15,433 nucleotides of DNA from Pseudomonadota bacterium (GTDB lineage: Bacteria; CALINM01): positions 1 to 15,433 of the forward strand of contig JAOAGA010000040.1 in assembly GCA_026415985.1 (NCBI GenBank), in the 5' to 3' direction. The position numbers and the translations under genes were made by a program. This document shows, piece after piece, positions 1,521-6,303 of the stretch. The notes under the pieces are model-generated. The model saw nothing but the letters and a program-made list of their open reading frames with translations, was not told the origin of the DNA and did no database searches. Within the stretch, counting starts at the first letter, position 1, and every line of letters begins with the position of its first letter.

Positions 1521-2500
1521 AAAGTAGAGTCCTTAGCGGGATGAGACCAACGGGAAAACTCCATTTTGGCCATTTGCACGGTGTCCTGAAAAACTGGCTA
1601 AGATTACAGGACGAGTACGAATGCTTCTTTTTTTCCGCGGATTGGCATGCCCTGACAAGTGAGTATGAAAATACTGAAAATCTTAAAGATTATATTTTGG
1701 ATAACATTATTGACTGGTTGTCGGTTGGTATAGACCCGGATAAGGCAACAGTCTTTGTTCAATCTAAGGTTATTGAGCATGCGGAGCTTAATCTTATTTT
1801 TGGCATGATTACACCATTATCATGGTTAGAAAGAAACCCTACTTACAAGGAACAGCTTCAGGAGATTAAAAATAAAGACTTACAGACCTTTGGATTCCTT
1901 GGTTATCCCGTGTTGCAGGCTGCTGATATCTTAATCTATAAAGCCCATTATGTGCCCGTTGGGATTGACCAGGTTCCTCATGTTGAACTTACAAGAGAGA
2001 TAGCAAGAAGATTTAATTATATATTCAAAGTTGAGCTTTTTCCCGTTCCGGAACCTCTTCTTACGGACACACCCAAGTTGTTAGGAACCGATGGCAGAAA
2101 GATGAGCAAAAGTTATAATAATTCTATTTACCTTTCTGACAAGCCAGAGGTTATTGAGAATAAAATCCTTACTATGATGACGGATCCTCATCGGGTTAGA
2201 AAAACTGATAAAGGTGATCCGGATCTGTGTCCTTTATTTTTATTTCATAAAATTTATACATCAGAAGAGGAAAGAAAAGAAATTATCCATAACTGCAAAA
2301 ACGCACTTTTTGGTTGCAGAGATTGCAAAAAAATATTATTAGGCAAGATGAAGCCTGAGATTGATAGTTATTGGGAGAAAAGAAATTACTATACTGAAAA
2401 CTTAGATAGGGTTAATGATATTATCTCTGAAGGAAACAAAAAGGCTAAAACCTTTGCTGAAAAGGTAATTAATGAGGTTAGGAATGCTGTTGGGCTATGA
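1517..2500 (+). CDS. trpS: tryptophanyl-tRNA synthetase
   Basis: This class I aminoacyl-tRNA synthetase charges tRNA-Trp with tryptophan in the cytoplasm. The 327-residue length is typical for bacterial TrpRS. The N-terminus has the TrpRS form of the HIGH region, SGMRPTGKLHFGH, with HFGH at residues 16-19. The second class I signature, KMSKS, is at 195-199 within TDGRKMSKSYNNS. Between them is a typical Rossmann segment with AADILIYKAHYVPVGIDQ, the tryptophan/dimer region of the family. The ATG overlaps the protease stop as ATGA, and GGGAGG at 1502-1507 provides a ribosome site nine bases upstream. The stop overlaps the scpA ATG in the same way. No tryptophan-responsive leader is visible, because the gene sits inside the operon. 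Confidence 0.97.
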   Translation: MKSRVLSGMRPTGKLHFGHLHGVLKNWLRLQDEYECFFFSADWHALTSEYENTENLKDYILDNIIDWLSVGIDPDKATVFVQSKVIEHAELNLIFGMITPLSWLERNPTYKEQLQEIKNKDLQTFGFLGYPVLQAADILIYKAHYVPVGIDQVPHVELTREIARRFNYIFKVELFPVPEPLLTDTPKLLGTDGRKMSKSYNNSIYLSDKPEVIENKILTMMTDPHRVRKTDKGDPDLCPLFLFHKIYTSEEERKEIIHNCKNALFGCRDCKKILLGKMKPEIDSYWEKRNYYTENLDRVNDIISEGNKKAKTFAEKVINEVRNAVGL

Positions 2501-3231
2501 GTATCAGTGTTAAGTTAGAAACCTTTGAAGGCCCCCTTGATCTGTTACTGCATCTTATTAAGAAAGAGAAGGTCGATATTTACGATATTCCAATCGTAAA
2601 GATTACACAGCAATATTTAGACTATTTAGATAAGATGAAGGAGCTAAACATATATATTGCCAGCGAGTTCCTTTTAATGGCAGCAACCCTTATTTATATA
2701 AAATCTAAAATGTTATTACCGAAAAAGGTTGAGATTGATAGTGAGATAGGAGAAATCCAAAAGGAAGAAGATCCAAGAGCACCACTCGTAGAAAAGCTTG
2801 TTGAGTACCAAAGGATCAAAGAAATGGTTGAGATTCTCGAAAAAAAGGACAGGCTTTTTGAAAGTTTTTTCCCCAGAGGTTATACAGAGTTTAAGTTTGA
2901 CTACTATGAGGAAGAGTTTGACCCCTATGTGCTTGTTAAGGCTTTTTATGATTTGGTAAAAAAACTACCCGATGAGAGCTACCTTACCATTGAGTTAGAA
3001 AATTTATCTATAGTTGATAAAATGAACGAGATAATGGAGCTTTTAAAAAATGAAAAAAAGATGACATTTTTTTCCTATACAAGCAGGATTAAAAAAAGGC
3101 TGGAACTGATTGTTTTTTTTCTGTCTCTTTTAGAGCTTGCAAGACTAAGAATGGTTTATCTGAGACAGTTAAGAGAGTTTAACGACATAGAGATTTTACT
3201 TAGAGTAGAAGAGAATGGAGATGGAGAATAG
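2497..3231 (+). CDS. scpA: segregation and condensation protein A
   Basis: This is the kleisin subunit of the bacterial SMC-ScpAB condensin, which bridges the SMC heads and helps compact and separate chromosomes. The 244-residue protein opens with the ScpA hallmark VKLETFEGPLDLLLHLIKKE and continues VDIYDIPIVKITQQYLDYL, the N-terminal SMC-neck-binding helices. The middle is acidic and linker-like. The C-terminal winged helix (about residues 185-240) includes FFLSLLELARL, which normally docks on the SMC head. The ATG overlaps the trpS stop and the end overlaps scpB by 17 bases. The smc gene itself is not in the window. Confidence 0.96.
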   Translation: MSISVKLETFEGPLDLLLHLIKKEKVDIYDIPIVKITQQYLDYLDKMKELNIYIASEFLLMAATLIYIKSKMLLPKKVEIDSEIGEIQKEEDPRAPLVEKLVEYQRIKEMVEILEKKDRLFESFFPRGYTEFKFDYYEEEFDPYVLVKAFYDLVKKLPDESYLTIELENLSIVDKMNEIMELLKNEKKMTFFSYTSRIKKRLELIVFFLSLLELARLRMVYLRQLREFNDIEILLRVEENGDGE

Positions 3232-4568: not shown

Positions 4569-5807
4569 ATGAGAGAGATTTTTGTTGACTATGCTAATGC
4601 CTGTCCGGTGGATGAGCGTGTTTTTTCTGCTATGAAACCCTATTTTACTGAAAAATTCGGTAATCCTTCGTCTCATATAATTTCAAAAGGTAATGAGGCA
4701 CTGAAAGCTCTTGATGAATCAAGAAAAACTGTTGCAAATTTTCTTGGTGCAGAAAGTTTTGAGATAGTATTTACAGGTTCTGCTACGGAGGCTAATAATT
4801 TAGCCATTAAAGGCACAGCATTCAAAAATATCAACAAGGATAAGAAGCATATCATCGCTTCCGATATAGAGCATTTTAGTATAACTTCACCTTTAAGAAC
4901 TTTAGAGTTGGACTTTGATTTTAAAGTTGATTATGTCCCTGTTGATAACGATGGTATTGTTGAAGAATCGGCCTTAAGGAAAACATTGAGAGAGGATACA
5001 GTTCTTATTACAATTCAACTTGCCAATAATGAGATAGGTTCAATACAGGATATTAAAAATTTAGTTAAAATTGTCAAAGAGTTTAATGAGAATATAATTT
5101 TTCATTGCGATGCCAGTGCCTGTGGCGGGTTAATAGATGTAAATGTTAAGGAGCTGGATGTAGATTTGTTAACCCTTTCACCAATAAGTATGTATGGTCC
5201 AAAAGGTATTGCCTGTCTTTATATTAAAAAAGGTGTAACAGTAAAACCTTTAATTGAGGGTGGCTTTCAGGAAGCGGGTTTAAGGTCCGGAACTGAAAAC
5301 TTACCCGCCATAGTGGGATTTGCAAAAGCCTGTGAGATTTCAAAATTAGAGATGAATGAGAGGGCTAAGTACCTTTCCCGCTTAAGAGATAAACTTATGG
5401 ACGGTATTGAAAAAAACATTGACTTCGTTCACATTACCGGACACAGAACAAAAAGACTGCCAAACAACTTTAGCTTTTGGATAGAGTTTGCAGAGGGTGA
5501 ATCGTTATTGCTTATGTTAAATTATTTAGGAGTTATGGCAAGTAGCGGATCGGCCTGTAGCTCCAACTTAAGGGCACGCGATGAAGATGAGCTTGTTGCT
5601 TCGCCGGTTTTAAAAGCAATAGGAGTTCCTTCCGATATATGCACCGGTTCTCTGACCTTTTCCTTAGGGATGAAAAATACTGAAGAAGATATTGAGTATA
5701 TAATTCAGATAATGCCGGGAATTGTTAATAGACTATGGCAGATGTCACCCTTTTATTTAGATAAGATCAAGGGACATACACCAAAGATGACAAAGGTAGA
5801 TAAATGA
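4569..5807 (+). CDS. iscS: IscS/NifS-family protein lacking the PLP lysine (A. fulgidus IscS-like)
   Basis: The 412-residue protein has the fold-type I aminotransferase layout of cysteine desulfurases. It retains FGNPSS, GSATEANN (Thr73), IEH with His102, LANNEIG, Asp181, GLRSGTEN and the mobile-loop SSGSACSS with Cys330. The PLP site is broken. Canonical S-x-H-K-x-Y-G-P-K-G reads SPISMYGPKG here, so His and the Schiff-base Lys are Ile206 and Ser207. The PLP-contacting Gln of DATQ is Ala184 (DASA). The N-terminal DYANACPVDERV and the C-terminal LWQMSPFYLDK resemble Archaeoglobus fulgidus IscS as I remember it. That protein also lacks this lysine and is reported to have no desulfurase activity while supplying a cysteine ligand to the cluster on IscU. 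I infer a scaffold or ligand-donor role with IscU, encoded 100 bases downstream. The reading frame is intact and well translated, so this is not a pseudogene. Confidence 0.9.
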   Translation: MREIFVDYANACPVDERVFSAMKPYFTEKFGNPSSHIISKGNEALKALDESRKTVANFLGAESFEIVFTGSATEANNLAIKGTAFKNINKDKKHIIASDIEHFSITSPLRTLELDFDFKVDYVPVDNDGIVEESALRKTLREDTVLITIQLANNEIGSIQDIKNLVKIVKEFNENIIFHCDASACGGLIDVNVKELDVDLLTLSPISMYGPKGIACLYIKKGVTVKPLIEGGFQEAGLRSGTENLPAIVGFAKACEISKLEMNERAKYLSRLRDKLMDGIEKNIDFVHITGHRTKRLPNNFSFWIEFAEGESLLLMLNYLGVMASSGSACSSNLRARDEDELVASPVLKAIGVPSDICTGSLTFSLGMKNTEEDIEYIIQIMPGIVNRLWQMSPFYLDKIKGHTPKMTKVDK

Positions 5808-5907: not shown

Positions 5908-6303
5908 ATGGCAGATGCACAGGGACCATATAGTCAGAAAGTTATGGAGCATTTTTTAAATCCAAAAAATATGGGTGAAATCACCGATGCGAGCGGTATT
6001 GGAGAGGTAGGAAATCCATCCTGTGGTGACGTGATGAGACTGTATTTAAAAATAAATGATGATGGAATTATTGAAGATGCTAAGTTTATGACCTTTGGGT
6101 GTGGTGCGGCAATCGCTTCGAGCAGTATGGTTACAGAGATGATTAAAGGAAAGACGGTAGAGGAGGCTTTAAAGGTTACAAATGAGACAGTAGCTGAGGC
6201 TTTAGGCGGGCTTCCGCCTGCAAAGATACACTGTTCTGTTTTGGCTCAGCAGGCTATTGAAGCTGCAATTAAAGATTATAAAGAAAAAAAGGGTATAAAG
6301 TAA
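5908..6303 (+). CDS. iscU: Fe-S cluster assembly scaffold IscU/NifU N-terminal type
   Basis: IscU is the scaffold on which [2Fe-2S] clusters are built before transfer to client proteins. The 131-residue protein is a full-length IscU domain with the three ligand cysteines in their family motifs: NPSCGD (Cys39, with the conserved Asp41), FGCGAAIASSS (Cys65) and KIHCSVLA (Cys109, preceded by His108). LGGLPPAKIHC corresponds to the LPPVK region recognised by the HscA-type chaperone. AGGAGG at 5897-5902 is a strong ribosome site five bases before the ATG. It has no C-terminal Nfu or ferredoxin domain, so it is IscU-like rather than long NifU. It lies directly after the lysine-less IscS, its likely partner, and runs straight into the cation transporter gene. 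No hscA, hscB, fdx or iscR is visible in this window. Confidence 0.95.
   Translation: MADAQGPYSQKVMEHFLNPKNMGEITDASGIGEVGNPSCGDVMRLYLKINDDGIIEDAKFMTFGCGAAIASSSMVTEMIKGKTVEEALKVTNETVAEALGGLPPAKIHCSVLAQQAIEAAIKDYKEKKGIK

Follow-up and report, generated by a model that had tools for sequence, protein, structure and literature searches.

A bacterial IscS-family protein without the Schiff-base lysine, encoded beside IscU, and its lysine-less relatives

The window considered here is a stretch of 15,433 nucleotides from a pseudomonadotal genome. It carries, at 4569..5807 on the + strand, a gene for a 412-residue IscS-family protein that lacks the lysine on which desulfurase chemistry depends. We judge it likely that the product is an IscS-fold partner of IscU unable to act as a PLP-dependent desulfurase, with Cys330 receiving or holding sulfur that comes from elsewhere. 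Judged by alignment, the Schiff-base lysine, His205, Gln183 and the substrate arginine have all been lost, while the cysteine and the C-terminal tail are retained, and the gene adjoins the only IscU found in the genome.

Pfam places the product in aminotransferase class V (Aminotran_5, 219 bits); the equivalog models for NifS/IscS in NCBIfam match it only below their cut-offs (412 against 530.75 bits, and 346.9 against 643.2). The reference for alignment was the IscS of the E. coli MG1655 record (L191), in which Lys206 is the Schiff-base lysine, Gln183 the PLP-contacting residue and Arg354 the substrate-binding one. Ile206 and Ser207, in the motif PISMYG (5181..5198, +), stand in place of His205 and Lys206; Ala184, closing the segment Asp181-Ala-Ser-Ala184 (DASA; 5109..5120, +), replaces Gln183; Thr363 (5655..5657, +) occupies the position of Arg354. 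Kept are Asp181 (E. coli Asp180), His102 (His104) and Cys330 (Cys328), and Asn155 is present. The mobile cysteine loop, SGSACSSN (residues 326–333; Cys330 codon at 5556-5558), is followed by a 7-residue insertion (5565-5591), loop and insertion together falling within 5544..5603 (+); the C-terminal VNRLWQMSPFY (5724..5756, +) matches RLRxMSPLY, the tail that lysine-containing IscS proteins conserve. E. coli IscS and NifS (group I) thus have in common with this protein the fold, the loop, the tail, and the equivalents of His104 and Asp180, but not Lys206, His205, Gln183 or Arg354. As tests of membership in IscS/NifS, the mobile-loop cysteine is satisfied by Cys330; the Schiff-base lysine (Ser207 instead) and the substrate-binding arginine (Thr363 instead) are not.

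The DNA at 5181-5198 reads CCAATAAGTATGTATGGT and encodes PISMYG without ambiguity, in a translation that runs SPISMYGPKG at residues 204–213. A sequence-only reading of the window had already claimed the exchange of His-Lys for Ile206-Ser207 and of Gln for Ala184, with Cys330, His102 and Asp181 kept and the nucleotides unambiguous; translation, alignment and the DNA itself bear this out, so that the losses it named are real, but the list was short by one, the change of Arg354 to Thr363 having been overlooked. It also named the finding that would overturn it, another lysine in the Schiff-base position, and the alignment of homologs shows none. Lysines do lie near the active site, at 212, 220, 221 and 226. 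Lys212 is part of a GPKG motif that lysine-containing homologs also have, and outside that motif the class has no conserved lysine; a substitute Schiff-base lysine was rejected.

An AlphaFold model of the monomer alone (pLDDT 86.5, pTM 0.87) has low pLDDT at 329–341, and its cysteine loop and insertion are of low confidence. Its best structural matches are the E. coli IscS–IscU complex 3lvl (Z 52.8, rmsd 1.5 over 383) and the Archaeoglobus fulgidus IscS–IscU complex 4eb5 (Z 52.7, rmsd 1.5 over 376), with many further IscS entries tied with these.

The protein is not alone. Among 177 homologs from bacteria and archaea, 49 are lysine-less and 128 contain the lysine; active-site residues were read for the best-scoring homologs only, and taxon sampling is uneven. 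The bacterial lysine-less members come from Aquificota and from at least 18 family codes. Cys330 is invariant in all 177, and in 49/49 lysine-less proteins so are His102, Asp181, Arg239 and Glu243; in desulfurases, the equivalents of His102 and Asp181 touch PLP. Other active-site positions have relaxed. Lysine-less homologs keep Gln183 in 5/49 cases, His205 in 14/49 and Arg354 in 0/49, against 128/128 for both Gln and His and 126/128 for Arg354 where the lysine is present. In place of the lysine stands Asp in 18 proteins, Gln in 10, Ser in 6, Tyr in 4, Arg in 3 and another residue in the rest, and the Gln183 and His205 sites vary likewise. In an entropy scan over all columns, the five sites that have relaxed most are Lys206, Gln183, His205, Arg354 and Asn155; Lys206 ranks first by definition, as it defines the groups, and the other four are independent. 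On the evidence of these columns, loss of Arg354 is a marker independent of the lysine-based grouping. Chance cannot explain the losses, because four active-site columns go together across 49 homologs. These 49 support the suggestion that non-desulfurase IscS proteins form a wider class, one that has given up PLP chemistry and retains the cysteine loop and the framework for IscU.

Several members deserve separate mention. The only lysine-containing homologs without Arg354 (2/128) are a near-identical pair, L116 and L121 (each at 2007-3149 of its own locus), which keep His-Lys and Gln; their cysteine loop is altered and reads SPGSTCTFTAR. Four archaeal lysine-less proteins (L171, L172, L178, L180) read SWDMYGPYG, having lost the GPKG-motif lysine too, and have dsrE-type genes adjacent. 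Four from Aquificota (L039, L041, L042, L044; Hydrogenothermaceae and one other MAG) have Tyr for the lysine, in GHYFYAPKG. Close to these last is a cysteine desulfurase represented in the PDB by a mutant series, 9wep to 9wfy, that ends in a Lys-to-Leu change (9wfy); substitutions in the series recur in the natural proteins from Aquificota, which have GHY. No publication on these entries was found.

The gene's neighbour fits the role proposed. An IscU/NifU-type scaffold gene (5908..6303, +; NCBIfam TIGR03419, 208.8 bits against a cut-off of 187.9) starts 100 bases downstream of the lysine-less iscS, meeting the test of pairing with IscU, and no other NifU_N match was found in the genome. IscU adjoins the lysine-less gene in 32/45 loci, compared with 33/121 for lysine-containing genes. 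SufB/D is absent from 23/26 bacterial genomes that carry the class, as opposed to 14/40 of those that do not. In 14 genomes, of which 9 are at least 98% complete, the only IscU found adjoins a lysine-less IscS, and the search for SufB/D found none (G000, the window's own, with G002, G013, G044, G058, G089, G126, G161, G185, G189, G201, G250, G300 and G321). The window's genome is 84% complete, so a SUF system may have escaped notice there; none was found either in two relatives at 91–92% completeness.

A second, lysine-containing desulfurase, which the sequence-only reading had advised looking for, is present. In the window's genome it lies on another contig (C87; L002 1492-2649) with mnmA directly 3′ of it, and the arrangement is the same in two genomes of the same family (G001 and G002). 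Altogether, a lysine-containing paralog was found in 16 class-bearing genomes, beside mnmA in at least 5. With one copy beside mnmA and the lysine-less copy with IscU, a division of labour is suggested: the canonical IscS would serve tRNA thiolation, and the lysine-less IscS would work with IscU.

Neighbouring genes offer a lead to the source of sulfur. In a Pfam scan of 102 neighbour ORFs of lysine-less loci, the families met most often were DrsE_2 (12), DsrE (9) and TusA (8); in 110 neighbours of lysine-containing loci the commonest were Rrf2 (9) and MnmA (6), and none of the three carrier families appears among the 25 listed. By profile search of similar flanks, tusA/dsrE-type genes accompany 21/48 lysine-less and 0/128 lysine-containing loci (Fisher p 2.8e-14; 1.1e-9 on dereplicated rows). 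These p values ignore kinship, and are too small because the rows are related. The DsrE profile was seeded from lysine-less loci; the unbiased Pfam scan with its control agrees with it. Both lysine-less groups, bacterial and archaeal, show the linkage, yet it rests on merely 2–3 independent transitions in the tree; an independent-pairs test for tusA/dsrE and for IscU linkage was underpowered, with 2–3 pairs, too few for a phylogenetic test of neighbour association. No tusA/dsrE gene was found in the flanks searched beside the window gene or elsewhere in its subclade. The window's genome does encode a YedF-like TusA–DsrE fusion (L209 2337-2930) and a separate TusA-like ORF (L208 1-246) near hdrA-like genes, both unlinked to iscU.

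One way to understand the retained cysteine is as a station in a sulfur relay. The protein would dock IscU as IscS does, an inference without binding data, and Cys330 would handle sulfur made elsewhere: it may accept persulfide from a TusA/DsrE-type carrier, possibly charged by the lysine-containing paralog, and pass the sulfur to IscU. The tusA/dsrE linkage suggests such a relay in much of the class, and for the class as a whole we lean towards it.

A second perspective limits the protein to the part reported for A. fulgidus IscS. Here the sulfur comes as free sulfide; Cys330 never carries persulfide, and its task is to complete the coordination of the cluster forming on IscU. That archaeal protein is described as without desulfurase activity and as giving a cysteine ligand to the [2Fe-2S] cluster on IscU (PMC7585200), just as the sequence-only reading had stated. 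Sulfide, moreover, can feed IscU, as H2S rescues an E. coli strain that lacks iscS and not one that lacks iscU (PMC13015791), and the window locus has no adjacent carrier genes. Free sulfide alone nevertheless fails to explain the tusA/dsrE linkage at 21/48 loci, bacterial and archaeal. As a complete account it keeps a substantial minority of our credence. The kept loop and tail fit both Cys330 as relay and Cys330 as ligand to a cluster that free sulfide completes; in the subclade of the window protein, without adjacent carrier genes, we hold the two options about equal.

The archaeal parallel is close in features and distant in descent. In A. fulgidus IscS (PDB 4eb5, 4eb7, 4hvk; D199K mutant 4r5f) the lysine is Asp199, the His Asn198, the Gln Ala176 and Arg354 Leu347; like the window protein it keeps the cysteine loop, and it forms a complex with IscU. 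The window protein meets the test for this type (fold, replacement of Lys206, His205, Gln183 and Arg354, loop kept). The two are about 45% identical, and the archaeal protein belongs to a separate clade and lacks the 7-residue insertion. In a tree computed with the trait columns left out, the 25 bacterial lysine-less rows and L116 form one clan (100/98), and 13 archaeal rows, A. fulgidus IscS among them, form another group (93/91). Within the bacterial clan the window protein has its own subclade (100/98) with L010, L099, L101, L133, L134 and the long-branched L038; the insertion is present in all of these but L038, and also in L011. A single clade for all lysine-less rows is rejected (AU p 0.026); one for the bacterial rows without L116 is not (AU p 0.41). 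Since the one-clade tree fails and the bacterial and archaeal groups stand apart, the lysine was probably lost at least twice, the losses in bacteria and archaea being probably convergent on this phylogeny; a single bacterial loss is not rejected, although the lysine-containing L116 sits inside the clan. L116 and L121 look transitional, as Arg354 has gone while the lysine remains, and L116 is possibly such a state. Simple orthology to A. fulgidus IscS was rejected by the tree and the AU test. The comparison drawn earlier therefore holds for the equivalent replaced positions (Asp199, Ala176) and not for kinship: the bacterial family is a separate clan, and the window protein is probably an analogue.

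Could the protein still be a desulfurase, binding PLP without a Schiff base and using His102 or some other residue to transfer protons? The invariance of His102 and Asp181 speaks for this, as does the K206A variant of E. coli IscS, which retains some PLP and yields intermediates when given cysteine (PMC9978102); for both reasons some ligand may remain in the pocket of the lysine-less protein. Activity is another matter. K206A, H104Q and Q183E of the E. coli enzyme have no desulfurase activity (PMC9978102), which makes a desulfurase very unlikely here; moreover, the substrate arginine is lost in 49/49, no lysine besides that of the shared GPKG motif is conserved in the class, and A. fulgidus IscS is reported inactive (PMC7585200). 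We regard continued desulfurase activity as highly improbable.

The losses are also not an artefact. Orthologs in the two same-family genomes are 71–72% identical to the window protein and carry equivalent losses, both reading SPTSLYGPKG and DATA, with Thr-Ser and Ala at the sites; between these two, dN is 0.086 and dS about 1.6. The gene is under strong purifying selection. Sequencing error and pseudogene are both ruled out, as the relatives carry the same kind of loss and dN lies far below dS. That the gene is a decaying paralog without function, as its faster evolution might hint (71.5% identity to the G002 copy, versus 85.0% for the lysine-containing paralog), is scarcely credible given intact ORFs, the low dN, a cysteine loop invariant in 49 homologs and linkage to the only IscU found.

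Two known systems resemble the locus in part. Methanosarcina acetivorans IscS1, which is archaeal, reportedly has no catalytic lysine and lies in an iscSU pair (PMC7585200). The MIS system (MisS–MisU; PMC12442378, citing Garcia et al.) is, like the window locus, a bare iscS–iscU pair; it is described with a cysteine desulfurase, which the window IscS very probably is not.

A broad bacterial family of lysine-less IscS is apparently undescribed: no paper on it was found in the open-access literature, which is weak evidence of novelty. Automatic annotation would give these proteins the name of cysteine desulfurase. Should that be wrong, the source of Fe–S sulfur in many SUF-less bacterial lineages is unknown, and the tusA/dsrE linkage is a concrete candidate for the supply, hinting at another route by which sulfur is fed into Fe–S clusters. 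In E. coli sulfur passes from IscS to TusA. That a PLP-free IscS is the housekeeping partner of IscU in many bacteria, most of them without SUF, and in archaea, and is loaded by TusA/DsrE persulfide carriers, remains a tentative proposal to which we give a little less than even odds. If true, loading would run opposite to the E. coli direction, in an Fe–S route whose IscU partner does not desulfurate cysteine. The class makes testable a role for the IscS fold in cluster assembly beyond the production of persulfide from cysteine.
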